A stretch of 13,627 nt of DNA, taken from NCBI GenBank assembly GCA_024276815.1, contig JAJRWM010000021.1, positions 1-13,627 of the forward strand, written 5' to 3'. Of this stretch, positions 3,125 to 11,552 are shown piece by piece; positions within the stretch are counted from its first letter, which is position 1; each line of letters opens with the position of its first letter. This stretch comes from a bacterium (lineage in GTDB: Bacteria; JACRDZ01; JAJRWM01). A model generated the notes under the pieces. That model did not search any database. It was not told the origin of the DNA and worked only from the letters and a program-made list of their open reading frames with translations. A program made the translations under genes and the position numbers.

Positions 3125-4343
3125 AGGTTTAAAAGGCGATGATAATGGTTTTTATCTCAACAGAAAGTCAGGATTGAAGATCAAGGGGCGGAAAACAGCG
3201 GCTTTAATATTGGTAATGAGCGCCGTTATCTTTTCGATATCGTTATCAGCTCAAGAGAATCAGCTGGCAGAACTGGTTTCTTACCTGTTGCCGAATGAAA
3301 AACGAAACTGGTTTATAACACCGCTGGTTAACATAAACATATACGGTTTTCAGCCCGGCGGCGGTTTCCTGTTCAAAAACAAAAATGTTTTTGAACAAGG
3401 TTATCAAGCCGAAATTTATACTTTCATTGATTATACCGGCTACCAAAGCCATTATTTGAAATTTTACAACAAAAAACTGTTTGATAGCGTAATTGATACC
3501 AGGGTTGGTTTGTCTTATCAATATTCGTTTGAGCGTTTTTATGGTTTTGGGGCTGATACAGTCTCATATTCAGAAGATAACGACGATAATGATGAAAGCG
3601 TTTATAAATTAAGGCAGGGCGCTGCCCAGGTTTTACTGGGATACAACTTCCCCTTGACGATTAAAACGGAAATTGGCTTTCAGTGGAAGAAAACCCATAT
3701 CGGGGACGCCTGGCTTGATGGGCGGAAAAACGCTAAACAAATCGATCATTTGCAAGGCGTTGATGGCGGGTTAACCAATAATATTGTTTGTATTGTCAGC
3801 TATAATATTTTTCAGACCAGAGAACAATGCGCCCGGGAAAAAACGACCGCGTCCGTTAAAGCCCTTTATGACACGAGGATATCATCGCCTGAGGTAGACA
3901 GCGATTATACTTTTAATAAGCATCTATTCGAAATAAAGGGGTTGCTTAGTTGTCCTACGCAACGCTATTATTCATTATCCCGTATTTCGATGGACACTAT
4001 CAGCGGTGAGAAGACGAGTCTCCCCTTCTATGAATATCCTGCCTTAGGCGGTCTCGCCACGCTGAGGGGATTATCGGAAAACCGTTACCGGGATCGGGTG
4101 GCGGTGAATGGCGGCGAGGAAGTGTTCTGGCGGGCCGGGGGCGATATCTTGATATCGGTTTTTAGTGATTTCGGTAAAGTTTTCCCGGCTGTACGGTTTG
4201 TTACGCTCAACGACTACCAGACTTCTCTGGGGTGCAGTGTGGGAAGCAAATTGTTTAATTCGTTTGACGTAGCGCTGACAGTCGCTCAGGCGAATAAACA
4301 TCCCGGGCCGGTGTATTATTTTAACGCGACTAATATATTTTAA
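3102..4343 (+). CDS. Omp85/BamA-family outer-membrane barrel without POTRA domains
   Basis: Predicted outer-membrane beta-barrel of the Omp85 'surface antigen' (Bac_surface_Ag) type. The C-terminal third has the family hallmark PALGGLATLRGLSENRYRDR with Leu-Arg-Gly at 321-323, followed by GDILISVFSDFGKVF, the usual glycine/aspartate strand of the barrel. The protein ends in YYFNATNIF, with the terminal aromatic expected of a BamA-recognised beta-signal. At 413 residues there is room for a barrel but not for POTRA repeats. The signal peptide is internal (KIKGRKTAALILVMSAVIFSISLSA), preceded by about 24 unlikely residues. The true start may therefore be the in-frame TTG at 3174 rather than the ATG at 3102 that overlaps the esterase gene; neither has a strong ribosome-binding site. 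Patatin-linked Omp85 barrels pair a lipase-like domain with such a barrel, so the esterase neighbour is suggestive. Confidence 0.75.
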   Translation: MSEASWIEGLKGDDNGFYLNRKSGLKIKGRKTAALILVMSAVIFSISLSAQENQLAELVSYLLPNEKRNWFITPLVNINIYGFQPGGGFLFKNKNVFEQGYQAEIYTFIDYTGYQSHYLKFYNKKLFDSVIDTRVGLSYQYSFERFYGFGADTVSYSEDNDDNDESVYKLRQGAAQVLLGYNFPLTIKTEIGFQWKKTHIGDAWLDGRKNAKQIDHLQGVDGGLTNNIVCIVSYNIFQTREQCAREKTTASVKALYDTRISSPEVDSDYTFNKHLFEIKGLLSCPTQRYYSLSRISMDTISGEKTSLPFYEYPALGGLATLRGLSENRYRDRVAVNGGEEVFWRAGGDILISVFSDFGKVFPAVRFVTLNDYQTSLGCSVGSKLFNSFDVALTVAQANKHPGPVYYFNATNIF

Positions 4344-4413: not shown

Positions 4414-4482
4414 TTAAAAGTTTTTGGAAAGGGGTCTGGGGAACAACCTTTTTGCCAAAAAGGTTTGCCCCAGCAAGAATTT
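4414..4482 (+). repeat. Dispersed palindromic repeat, copy 1 (GCC-loop type)
   Basis: First of four related intergenic elements, all on the + strand. The left flank is a TAAAAGTTTTTGG-type start followed by a G-rich stretch. The stem runs from CTGGGG (4436-4441) through ACCTTTTT, a GCC loop and AAAAAGGT to CCCCAG (4468-4473), with a small internal bulge. Copies 2, 3 and 4 are at 5670, 9716 and 11457. The structure resembles REP-like intergenic palindromes; its function is unknown. Confidence 0.75.
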
Positions 4483-4529: not shown

Positions 4530-5579
4530 GTGCTTAAAAAATATTATTGGCGGTTGTTTTTCCTGCTCTTGATTTCTTTTTCCTTAATGCCTAATATTTA
4601 TGCTGTTGAAAAAGTTCTGGTTCTCGATTTTTCCATCAACAGCGGATCAAAAGAGAAGATCTGGATAAGCGAGGCGTTATCTCTTGATATTAGCGATAAC
4701 TTTATGTTGTTAGATAATTTTCAAACGGTAAGTTTTGCTGAAAAAGAGAAGGGGTTAAGCGGTTTATCAAAAAGTCAGCGGCAAGACCCGGTTGTTATTG
4801 GTGAATTATTTAACGCGACACAGGTGGTTATTGGAGAACTCGTTGAAGAAAAGAATTCAATAATCTGTTTCGGTAAGATCTATAATGTCGGCAAAGCAAA
4901 GAGCCGGCCCATAACGTTTAACGTCAGCGGCCGGACGAAATGGCTGCTGGATTTCAGTGAGGATATCAGTTGGAAAATCCTTGACCTGTTAAATTTGCGA
5001 AAGTTTACCAAAGAGGACGAAGATCGGTTAAGGTTTAAAATTAAGGATAACAAGCGGTTAAAGTTCTTTCTGGAGACAGAAAAAGCGTATATCTCCGGGG
5101 ATTACGCTAAAGCTCTCGCGGGTTATAAACGTTTTATGGAGGATGAACCAGGATTTATTACCACCCATCTGAGACTGGCTGATATTTATTTTAAATTTAT
5201 CGATTCTGATGAAAACTCGCTCAAACAAAGTGAATATTTTACCAAGATTAACGATGTTTTAAAGAAAGCTCTGAATCTGGATCATAGAAATCGCCGGATT
5301 TATTATTATCTGGGCGTGCTGTATTCTCATAATTCCTGGGTGGGCAGAGATTACCAGACAGGCGTTAAATATTTCAAACAGGCGACCGCGTGCTTCCCTT
5401 ATTATACTGAAGCGTATCGCGCCCTGGCCTATCTTTACGCGGAGAAAATGAAGGAATATGAAAAGGCGATAAATGTCTATGACCGGATCAGCGCTTATGA
5501 TCCCACGAACCCGATAATTGAAAAGGACATTGAGTATATTTTTAATTTAAGCCAGGGAGTTAAATACTTCAAACATTAA
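4530..5579 (+). CDS. Exported tetratricopeptide-repeat protein
   Basis: Protein of 349 residues with an N-terminal Sec signal peptide (KKYYWRLFFLLLISFSLMPNIYA, cleavage probably before VEKV). Residues 26-150 form an alpha/beta domain opening with KVLVLDFSINSGSKEKIWISEALSLDI, later VVIGELFNATQVVIGELV. This pattern resembles periplasmic FlgO/CsgG/TolB-like N-terminal domains that precede TPRs, a resemblance only. From about residue 180 there are TPR-like helices: EKAYISGDYAKALAGYKRFMEDEPGF, RIYYYLGVLYSH, DYQTGVKYFKQATACFPYYTEAYRALAYLYAEKMKEYEKAINVYDRISAYDPTNP. TPRs mediate protein-protein contacts, so an envelope scaffold role is plausible. The start is GTG at 4530 with AGGTGGGTG upstream as ribosome-binding site. 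It is followed 2 bases after the stop by a hairpin terminator, so it ends a transcription unit. No specific function recognised. Confidence 0.8.
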   Translation: MLKKYYWRLFFLLLISFSLMPNIYAVEKVLVLDFSINSGSKEKIWISEALSLDISDNFMLLDNFQTVSFAEKEKGLSGLSKSQRQDPVVIGELFNATQVVIGELVEEKNSIICFGKIYNVGKAKSRPITFNVSGRTKWLLDFSEDISWKILDLLNLRKFTKEDEDRLRFKIKDNKRLKFFLETEKAYISGDYAKALAGYKRFMEDEPGFITTHLRLADIYFKFIDSDENSLKQSEYFTKINDVLKKALNLDHRNRRIYYYLGVLYSHNSWVGRDYQTGVKYFKQATACFPYYTEAYRALAYLYAEKMKEYEKAINVYDRISAYDPTNPIIEKDIEYIFNLSQGVKYFKH

Positions 5580-5601: not shown

Positions 5602-5731
5602 AAGTGTGCTAACGGCCATTAACAATAGGGTCGAAGGTAATGGGTTTAAGTGAAGTTGGTCTGCGCGGATTAAAGTTTTTTGGAAAAGGGTTTGGGAAAG
5701 AACTTTTTTGCCAAAAAAGTTCTTTCCCAAG

Positions 5732-5853
5732 GTAAGGCGTCAGTCTTCCGGGGAAAAGACCTTCTTTGTCATTCCCGTGCCAACGGGAATCCACTGGATT
5801 CCTGCATACGCTGGCATGACATTACTGGTTCCCCCACTTCACTGACGCGTTAC
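5732..5853. mobile_element. 122-bp MITE-like element with IS66-type ends
   Basis: Non-coding insertion bounded by 13-bp terminal inverted repeats, GTAAGGCGTCAGT at 5732-5744 and its complement ACTGACGCGTTAC at 5841-5853 (12 of 13 match). It is flanked by a perfect 8-bp direct repeat, TTCCCAAG, at 5724-5731 and 5854-5861. Ends beginning with GTAA and an 8-bp target duplication are the published hallmarks of the IS66 family, so it was probably mobilised in trans by an IS66-type transposase; none is encoded in this window. The interior is palindromic and contains the GTCATTCCC/GGCATGAC element annotated separately. The target was a copy of the dispersed palindromic repeat. Confidence 0.7.
5768..5820. 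repeat. GTCATTCCC...GGCATGAC imperfect palindrome inside the MITE
   Basis: A 53-bp imperfect palindrome forming the core of the MITE-like insertion. It contains ATTCCC-8N-GGGAAT (5770-5789), the same format as the neisserial dRS3 repeat, and a second hairpin GGAATCC-ACT-GGATTCC. Similar GTCATTCCCG...GGGAATCCA repeats are dispersed in many bacterial genomes. It lacks its own flanking target duplication, so it is better read as part of the larger element. Confidence 0.6.
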
Positions 5854-5898
5854 TTCCCAAGGTTCTTCTTTCTTGAGTTTTTTTCTGATAATTGAAAG

Positions 5899-6013: not shown

Positions 6014-9000
6014 ATGATAAACATCAGAAAGATAATCTTGTTACCCATACTAACTGTTTTAGCGCTGGTGTGGTTCTTCTGGGGACTGAGCGGTGTTTAT
6101 GAAACGGAGAATAACCCGGTAAGCTTCAAAGCAAGGCTGAAAGCCGAACTCGCTTCCGGGAGTATTGATTATGATCAATACGCTCTTAATGTTTACTACT
6201 CCTTAAGAGAACCGGAAAAATTACCGCCCAGATATAAAAGCGGCGCGCTTTTTCAACCAGGTGAACGCTGCGCCACCTATTTGATCCGTGATGTGCAGAA
6301 GAACTGGCAGCGGCTTTCTCCCAAAACCCGGAAAATATTCTCCCGCTTAAATAAAGCGCCTGATTTACCCGATCAAATACCAAGTACGCATTTTGTCGTT
6401 CATTTTTATGACACTTCCACCAGCGCTAATGATTACGCGAACGCCTGTCTCGATTTTGCCGAGGAAGTCTGGCAGTATTTTCATAATGACAAAAGTTATC
6501 CTGAGCCGCAAACCGGTCAGTATCATCTTTATCTGGTGGATTTGGCGCCGGCGCTGGTTATTATGGAGCCACCTATTACGATACGGCAACCCAGACCTCT
6601 TATATGAGTATTAATGATAACTGGGTGCCCGGCAGGTATTTTACCGTTGGCGAGGATGCCGCCAGCGTTACCATCGCTCATGAGTATTTTCACGCCATAC
6701 AATTTGGCATCAATGAAAATCATAGCGACTGGTGGGCTGAAGCGACCGCGGTCTGGGCCGAGGATATTATTTATGACTCGGTTAACGATTATGAGCAATA
6801 CCTGGACCAGTTTTACGATTACCCCTACCTTGCTCTGAACGCCGTAAGCGGGCCTGGTACCACTGTGCCCTTACATGAATATGCCGCCAATGTCTTTCCC
6901 AGGTTTATTTCCGACCGGCTTGGTGACGATGAAATTCAGAAAATATGGGAAGAGTTTGTTACTTATGACACGGCTCTGGAAGCGATTAACGAGGCTTTAA
7001 AGTATGAAACTTATACTTTCGATGTCTTGTTTGATTCTTTCCTGATAGATAATTATACCAGGGATCACAAAGAAGGCAGGTTGGAAAACCTTGAACAAGT
7101 CTATGAAACCACCAACGTTCACGTCTACAGCACAACCAGTATCGCCTATGGCCAGACTATCAATGTCGATCGTACCCAGGATCAGGAAGAGCTGCCGCGC
7201 GGGCTGGGCGCCAACTATTTACGGATACTGCCTCCCGGCAACCTTTATGGCGACTTGCAAATAAGCTTCGATGGCGATGACAGTACGCCCTGGTCATTCC
7301 AGGTGATCAAAAGATTAGACACGACCTATAACATGGATACCACCTATTATTACCAGGTGGAACAACTGACGCTGGATACTACTGATAATACCGCTGTTAC
7401 CACCCTTAGTTTCTTTGGTCATGAATTTTATTCAGAAATAGTGTTGGTGCCCGCCGCTCTAACCTGGCTGGATGAAGATTATTTTGATGCCACCGGTTAT
7501 GAATACAGCTACAGTTTACATTTGGAACAGGATACGACCGCGCCCAAAGATGTCCGGGACTTAACCGCGGCTACCGGTTTCTATGAGGCGACTCTGTCGT
7601 GGAGCAATCCTGATGATTTTGACTATTCAGGCGCCATGATACGAAGAAATACGACTTCTTATCCGGCGAGTGAAAACGATGGCCAGTTAATCGCCAGCGC
7701 GATCAGTCCCCTTGCTGAGTATAGCGATCATTCAGTACTGGATCAGGACTATTATTATACCGTTTTCGCCTTTGACGGTATCCCCAATTACGCCGCCGGC
7801 GTGACCGCCCTGGTTCATTTCGCGACGGATACCACACCGCCCGGGGCGCCAATTAATGTCACGCCTCTTGAGGTGGACGAAAACCATGTGAAATTAAGCT
7901 GGAGTAAGCCTGCCGACGCTGATTTAAAGGGTATCGCTATTTACCGGGGTTCATATCCCAATACCAGCGGTACACCAGTGTACGACGGCTTGGGAACCGA
8001 TTTCTCTGACGGTCCGCTCACGCATGACACCACCTATTATTATTCTCTCTACGCTTATGATAAAGCGATCAACACCAATTATTCCGCCGCGGTCACGGTC
8101 CTGGTTAACATACCGGTTGATGTCAACGCTCCGTCGGCGCCCCAACCTTTGACCAGAACGCCGTATAACGGTTATATCAGGTTCACCTGGAGTGATCCGG
8201 CCGAGAGTGATTATGAGGGTGTGCGGTTTGCCTATGACAGTACGGTTACGCCGGCGACTCCTAATGACGGGACTTATGTTCAAGTGCCTAAAAACACCCA
8301 AATGGTGGAAATTTCCGGTCTGGATAACGACACCCGCTATTATTTTTCCGTGTTCAGTTATGATGAGATTCCCAACTATTCCTCCCCGGTACAGCTTAGC
8401 GAGCAGCCTGACGGTGTTCCGCCGCTGATTAACACGGTTGTGCTGCCAAACCCAATATTTAAAGAATATCTGGATATCAATATCATTTCCACGGAGGAAC
8501 TGCAAGCGAGTCTTAGCGCCGGCGTTACCTTCAACGGTAGCGACGTGGCGGTCACCTTAGGCCGGCTGCCTAACCTGTATTTTGTCTACCAGGGGTCGTA
8601 TACGCTGCCTGACGGCTCAAGCGGCAACATAGTCGTCGAGGCCAGCGCACAGGACATTGCCGGCAATACCGCCTATGATACCACCAGTTTCGCGACCAAG
8701 ATGGTGATGAAGCGTGACGGCGCGACGCTGGCCAACTCAAAAAACAATGTGACCCTGACAATCCCGGGCGGGGCGATGAGCAAGGACGCCAATGTCACCT
8801 TGCTCCCGGTCAGTAAATATACCTATAAAACACCTTTAGCCCTGGTTGGCGAAGGGGTGAATATCTACTCGCCGAAAGCCGAGTTCCAGTCCCCGGTCAG
8901 CCTGAGCTTTGATTACAGCGGTCAAAAGATAAGCCCGGCGGCGGAGAAGAAATTAGGGCTTTATCACTATGATGATGGTCAGTGGGTCTTTGTCAGCAAT

Positions 9001-9669
9001 AATTTCTCAGAACAAAAAATAACGATTTCAACTAAATTAAAGGGAGCCTATGCTCTCTTTATTGACGAGGTTCCCCCTTTGATTACTTCGATTTCACCCA
9101 ATGGCGGCCGGAAATTCAAGTTTAAAAATCCTGAGATCAGCGCGAACATTGATGACATCGGTTGCGGAGTTGATCCGGCATCAATCACCTTAACTGTGAA
9201 TTCGGAGAGGGTGCCGGTACGCTATAATCCCAAGACCGGCAAGATTAGCGCCGGCGGTTTCAGGGTCGTTGACGGGCCAAATACTTTTGTTCTTCAGGCC
9301 GCTGACAAGGTCGATAATATAAGCTTACCCATAACAACTGTCGCTCTGGCTACGGGTAAGGTTGAATTTGGTAAAGTTTTCGCCTATCCTAATCCGGCTC
9401 ATGATAAGACCACGATTCGCTATGAAAGTGAGAAACCAAACGTCAATATCAGCTTGATGATTTTTGATCTGGCGGGAGAACTGGTTTTTCATAAGGATGA
9501 AATCTACCGTGAAAGTCAGGAAGTTAGCTATTTAACCTACGATTATACCTGGAGGTGTAGAAACGACCGCGGTAAAAGGATTGGCAGCGGAATCTATATC
9601 TATCGGATGGAAATGACCAGCGACGGCAAAAGCGACACCTATATTGGCAAGCTGGCTGTCGTGCGCTAG
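6014..9669 (+). pseudogene. Large exported zinc metalloprotease with FN3 repeats, frameshifted
   Basis: One gene read in two frames: 6014-6607 (197 aa) and 6604-9669 (1021 aa). The first frame gives ...YHLYLVDL up to residue 177 (codon at 6542-6544) and then nonsense. The second frame, read upstream of its ATG from 6544, gives GAGAGYYGATYYDTATQTSYMSINDNW, so one missing base at 6544-6545 joins them into about 1218 residues. Domains, restored numbering: N-terminal hydrophobic signal or anchor 7-25; metalloprotease with HEYFH at 223-227 and probable third ligand Glu243 in WWAEATAVW, resembling MXAN_6640-type putative metalloproteases; three FN3 modules of about 97 residues from 507, 606 and 703; Ig-like regions; a ZU5-like segment (IPGGAM); and a C-terminal YPNP...GSGIYIYRM domain like FlgD-Ig/type IX sorting domains. 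A genuine pseudogene or an assembly error are both possible; no decay is seen elsewhere in the frame, which favours the latter or a recent mutation. Confidence 0.75.
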
Positions 9670-9715: not shown

Positions 9716-9785
9716 TAAAGTTTTTGTGGGGGGTTATAGGGGGGCGGTCTTTTTTCGAAAAAGAGTCCCCCTAACAAAAGTTGCA
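9716..9785 (+). repeat. Dispersed palindromic repeat, copy 3 (TCG-loop type)
   Basis: Begins TAAAGTTTTTG like the other copies, then a G-rich stretch and a stem from TAGGGGGG (9737-9744) through CTTTTT, a TCG loop and AAAAAG to CCCCCTA (ending 9773), with an internal bulge. It lies in the 139-base gap between the metalloprotease and the PorV-like gene, the only notable content of that gap. Confidence 0.7.
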
Positions 9786-11456: not shown

Positions 11457-11552
11457 TAAAGTTTTTAGTGCTTTAACAACACGTACGATAGGTATGGGGA
11501 GGTGCCGGAAACCGACTTTTTTCGAAAAAGGGGGTTTCCAAGGTTCTTTCTT
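11457..11552 (+). repeat. Dispersed palindromic repeat, copy 4 (TCG-loop type)
   Basis: Starts TTAAAGTTTTT like the others, then about 30 unrelated bases (11468-11496) split the left flank from the G-rich GGGGAGGTGCC. The stem pairs GGAAACC...CTTTTT with AAAAAG...GGTTTCC around a TCG loop (11507-11539), with two mismatches. The right flank CCAAGGTTCTTTCTT is intact and serves as the reference for copy 2. It lies between the convergent lipoprotein and guaA genes. Confidence 0.7.

Follow-up and report, generated by a model that had tools for sequence, protein, structure and literature searches.

IS66-type MITEs that often insert at a fixed distance upstream of predicted promoters in an uncultured bacterium

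ISDge4, a member of the ISBst12 group of the IS66 family, is a single-ORF element with inverted ends and an 8-bp target duplication, and it has been caught inserting within a coding gene (PMC12898284). The Mutator-superfamily elements TnGBS, ISLre2 and ISKra4 insert upstream of sigmaA promoters and keep a fixed distance from the −35; the distance reported for these Mutator-like elements is 15–17 bp (16 from the right repeat), and their orientation bias has been ascribed to unequal inverted repeats (PMC3942029). Bacterial MITEs in general (MITEAba12, PMC6382973, is an example) are short, non-coding elements with inverted ends and a target duplication, which are moved in trans.

The element described here is a 122-bp non-coding MITE in a window of 13,627 nucleotides (the whole stretch of DNA that was analysed; contig C139 of a 2.39-Mb assembly of 246 contigs). 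With the ISBst12 group its family shares imperfect inverted ends GTAANNNNTCAG, an 8-bp duplication and probably a single transposase ORF of 450–490 aa, but the element itself is a 122-bp derivative, and the relatives tested were without promoter targeting. The single-ORF organisation, lacking tnpA/tnpB, holds for the relative in another genome, G121, the middle of the family's own long element being unassembled. As in TnGBS, ISLre2 and ISKra4, insertion takes place at a constant spacing before the −35 and shows an orientation bias together with unequal ends, whereas the transposase superfamily is unrelated and the distance is 19 bp rather than 15–17 bp. The general features of bacterial MITEs listed above are all shared, although the parent family and the target preference differ. 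We regard the feature as very probably an IS66-family (ISBst12-like, single-ORF) MITE whose family has an often promoter-anchored target. IS66 MITEs are already a known kind, and it is the fixed-distance insertion at promoters which is provisionally new for IS66: there was no report of it in the literature searched, which lacked the main IS66 papers.

Table 1. Features of the MITE and of its insertion site (window coordinates)
Feature	Position	Strand	Remarks
IS66-type MITE, predicted non-autonomous	5732–5853	+	Boundaries identical across all copies, ~30 full-length in the genome
Left terminal inverted repeat GTAAGGCGTCAGT	5732–5744	+	Beyond 13 bp unlike the long-element ends (CTTCCGG)
Right terminal inverted repeat GTAACGCGTCAGT	5841–5853	−	Runs on as GAAGTGGGGGA, equal to both long-element ends
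Target-site duplication TTCCCAAG, left copy	5724–5731	+	Abuts the element
Target-site duplication TTCCCAAG, right copy	5854–5861	+	Abuts the element
Imperfect internal palindrome TGTCATTCCCG...CATGACA	5767–5821		Fold z = −6.75
TTGAGT at offset 19 from the element	5873–5878	+	TTGACA position of many sister copies; no usable −10 box follows in this copy
Near-perfect host hairpin, about 19-bp arms	5692–5730		Element inserted at its 3′ foot

The anatomy of the element (Table 1) agrees with the preliminary description, which had proposed a candidate non-autonomous IS66 derivative with 13-bp inverted repeats beginning GTAA and an identical 8-bp sequence abutting both sides. The left repeat matches the reverse complement of the right at 12/13 positions, the duplication is present on either side, and no credible ORF was found within the 122 bp. 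Further copies in the genome share its limits, and most of them carry 8-bp duplications. Every check put forward in the preliminary description came out in its favour. The assembly holds 30 full-length copies with 92–100% identity and about 10–12 partial ones; every full copy begins and ends at the equivalent bases, with lengths of 122–125 bp that reflect a 3-bp insert in three copies and a 1-bp insert in one. Because the same 122 bp recurs in this way, the element is not a chance arrangement. Once the flanks were oriented, perfect 8-bp duplications were seen in 18/30 full copies and 7/8 matches in two more. GTAA termini are found in nearly all copies, and likewise in the relatives, and the pattern GTAANSCGTCAGT gave 98 genome matches compared with 0 for the reversed control. 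What defines a MITE is thus seen here: multiple short non-coding copies with precise common boundaries and target duplications at dispersed sites. In a search of 386 genomes, GTAANNCGTCAGTGAAGTGGGG was present in its own genome only. Just three of the other genomes covered by the searches belong to the phylum of the host.

The interior of the element has a wider distribution. Short matches in unrelated phyla were obtained for the palindrome part ATTCCCG...CGGGAATCCA, restricted to element positions 30–65 and 60–90; in the search for DNA relatives of the MITE in other phyla, only this internal ATTCCCG...CGGGAAT palindrome matched and the ends did not. The core GTCATTCCCGTGCCAACGGGAATCCA matches short palindromic repeats in the genomes of several unrelated phyla, and the MITE may, judging by these matches, be a widespread repeat enclosed by IS66-type ends.

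Many of the GTAANSCGTCAGT matches lie in longer elements and not in the 122-bp one. These longer elements have the same 13–23 bp ends and are present in about 10 copies. The right end of the MITE equals the long-element ends for about 22–24 bp, and its left end for the first 13 bp only. The long elements are interrupted by contig breaks, being found on about 20 contigs which end mostly about 140 bp inside the element; this appears to be the signature of a multi-copy repeat collapsed by the assembler. One end, GTAANSCGTCAGTGAAGTGGGGGGAGGGGG..., opens a frame MGFCEPCFEKQQQIDTLSEENLRLKARL, and the complement of the other, GTAANSCGTCAGTGAAGTGGGGGATTAGCT..., closes the frame ...ETLMSILHTLKLRGFDVRERFKATLDSLAADPQSDVYDLLFSPDTS. 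In a genome search the product of the closing end (P0001; 51%, E = 4e-5) found a complete relative in another phylum, the G121 element. This is 1527 bp long, has GTAA ends (GTAAAGATTCAG) and is flanked by the 8-bp duplication GACTAATA; the product of its single ORF (P0002) matches DDE_Tnp_IS66 (PF03050) with E = 5e-36 and zf-IS66 with 2e-5, the latter just under the model cut-off. In pairwise comparisons with P0002 the start product of the long element showed 54% identity over 28 aa (E = 6e-8) and P0001 showed 46% over 50 aa of the C-terminus (E = 2e-10), both coding termini matching in order and in the correct orientation. Single-ORF IS66 relatives in three other genomes (G050, G235 and G364) are 1.49–1.56 kb long, with GTAANNNTTCAG ends and 8-bp duplications that are mostly perfect. 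In a plasmid tblastn search the C-terminal fragment also matched, weakly (E about 0.7–0.9), four proteins annotated as IS66 transposases and one place that carries no annotation. Among viral contigs, one search gave a single chance match and another none.

The membership of the MITE in the IS66 family, as first proposed, is thus well supported at the sequence level, because the copies, duplications and ends are joined by long-element termini that match P0002. The middle of the long element, with the catalytic domain, is absent from the assembly, so the full-length partner in the host is inferred from the two ends and from the complete relative elsewhere. A PF03050 search of the assembly returned no match, which is what an unbinned interior of the long element would give. 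The missing middle would encode a working transposase, in a PF03050 ORF that would start MGFCEPCFEKQQQ and end LLFSPDTS, and this enzyme would mobilise the MITE in trans through the shared GTAANNCGTCAGT ends.

A family-wide feature, beyond the account in the preliminary description, is where these elements insert. Outward-reading flanks were taken from the MITEs and from the long-element ends (96 in total, 88 retained after dropping those which were too short or ran straight into another copy). Exact TTGACA was seen in 14 flanks at offset 19 and in one at 18, with no occurrence at any other offset from 0 to 59, against an expectation of 0.03 per offset (binomial P about 1e-33). Offset 19 corresponds to the 8-bp duplication plus 11 bp. 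TTGA alone occurred 24 times at offset 19, no other offset exceeding 4, and the peak was seen separately for MITEs (10/54) and for the other ends (14/34). A −10 box (TATAAT-like) lay 16–18 bp past the −35 in 21/26 flanks, compared with 5 and 1 at control spacings; after exact TTGACA it is usually 17–18 bp on. When the −35 and −10 were combined in a promoter score, with a pass at ≥8/12, 33/88 flanks passed at offset 19 compared with 1.8% at control offsets. The flanks are otherwise unrelated to one another (≤51% identity). Only 13/30 full MITE copies passed the score, and targeting is therefore a preference and not a rule. Outward ORFs were near 24/33 promoter-like flanks and 26/52 others, only a mild excess. 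The promoter-facing end of the MITE, whose ends are unequal, was the left one in 12 flanks and the right one in 2 (P = 0.006). Taken together, the flanks indicate that the family often inserts at a fixed distance before predicted sigma70-type promoters of its uncultured host. Related IS66 copies in three other genomes gave the offset-19 pattern in 0/24 flanks (P = 9e-5 compared with the host's own flanks); the single copy in G121, closest of the relatives at the protein level, carries TTTACA-N17-TATCCT at offset 19 and scores 9/12 on one side.

We consider it likely that this IS66 lineage has independently evolved promoter-guided transposition, with the element end placed 19 bp upstream of the −35 hexamer; in the literature searched, such a property was described for Mutator-like prokaryotic transposases only. 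The transposase would cut the target with an 8-bp stagger, 11 and 19 bp upstream of the hexamer, and the duplicated segment would fall at about −54 to −47. The promoter would be read by the enzyme itself or by a bound partner, for example RNA polymerase or sigma. An alternative which we think unlikely, though it deserves to be weighed, is that the transposase recognises the TTGACA hexamer alone as a DNA motif, with no regard to the promoter as such. The −35 hexamer is the strongest component of the pattern, one flank (L015_L) has a perfect TTGACA with no clear −10, and the window copy has TTGAGT with no −10; since some sites have the hexamer only, motif recognition is kept as a rival. Against it, −10 boxes follow 11/14 exact hexamers at insertion sites compared with 27/112 (24%) of background TTGACA sites in the genome (P = 1e-4), and at some sites (L151, L144 and L030) a good −10 goes with a poor −35. 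The enrichment of the −10 box favours recognition of the promoter over that of the hexamer.

It is very improbable that these are ordinary IS66 MITEs inserting at random, the pattern being left by selection as genic insertions were lost and harmless ones upstream of promoters persisted. Many copies are indeed intergenic and some, including the window copy, lie away from promoters, but such a process would spread the distances, whereas the −35 lies at exactly 19 in 14 of the 15 exact cases, and related IS66 elements, subject to comparable selection, lack the pattern. This explanation was rejected on account of the fixed offset. Also very improbable is movement by a Mutator-superfamily transposase of the ISLre2/ISKra4/TnGBS kind. 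The insertion geometry does come near the 15–17 bp of that group (PMC3942029), and the duplication lengths are similar. Against this, the long elements, which share both the ends and the targeting, encode correctly oriented IS66-like termini, and the combination of GTAA ends and 8-bp duplications is that of IS66. A genome search with PF06782 (ISLre2) gave no match, a weak point given that the control likewise had none.

If promoter-guided transposition by this IS66 lineage is true, promoter targeting arose at least twice in DDE transposases, and the family offers an independent system for asking what is recognised, be it a DNA motif, sigma or RNA polymerase. Within a poorly known phylum, a single genome would then carry MITEs scattered in front of its promoters. 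Landing at about −50 would spare genes while allowing upstream control to be rewired, and each copy would be a natural promoter-tagging event, so that in uncultured bacteria the insertions would mark likely promoters at base-pair precision.

Some targets appear to have been used repeatedly. Seven MITE copies are separated by exactly 8 bp from the end of another copy (contigs C60, C103, C189, C199, C226, C228 and C239). In C226, C228 and C239 the MITE is situated between a promoter-like site (with a score of only 7/12 in C226) and an older element, the duplication being common to both elements, which would be the expected product of repeated use of one promoter-anchored 8-bp target.

The window copy is one of the non-promoter insertions of the family. 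Its two flanks score 4 and 5 of 12, where 5/12 is the background level, and it lies downstream of the gene at 4530–5579, having inserted into a host hairpin repeat. The hairpin (Table 1) belongs to a repeat of the host, relatives of which lie at 4414–4465, 9717–9766 and 11515–11552. The preliminary description had proposed that the pre-insertion site could be reconstructed from an uninterrupted copy of this repeat: when the flanks were joined minus one duplication they did align across the junction to 11515–11552, only loosely (80% over 40 columns, E = 0.015).

Several further observations concern the host repeat and its surroundings. The repeat, AAAGTTTTTGG... followed by a terminator-like hairpin, is intergenic and occurs in the window at the three relatives just listed and at 5670–5730. 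Repeats of this type also adjoin other elements of the family (contigs C3 and C198), and one further copy, L005, seems to have entered the same TTCCAAGGTTCTT motif. Downstream in the window, ORFs at 6014–6607 and 6604–9669 overlap in different frames and look like one secreted protease-like protein, which a frameshift near 6600 would split in two.

Other observations concern the elements themselves. The two bases after GTAA (element positions 5–6 and their mirror; window 5736–5737 and 5848–5849) occur as GG, CG, CC, TG, TC or GA. They switch at both ends and in all copies, in conflict with the copy relationships at other sites (site-pair incompatibility 27/44, compared with 9/55 among other columns), and the long-element ends vary likewise; the switching may reflect either the way in which the element transposes or an exchange between ends. 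At one locus (L003, contig C60, near 3360–3420) a 44-bp stub of a long-element end adjoins a MITE. Immediately beyond the stub come 11 bp and TTGACA-N17-TAAATT, the spacing on the promoter side being retained with the remaining element gone. Finally, elements of 62–96 bp with the same ends, other interiors and no matching 8-bp duplications are found on contigs C145, C157 and C244 (L157, L159 and L174), and are probably older related MITEs.
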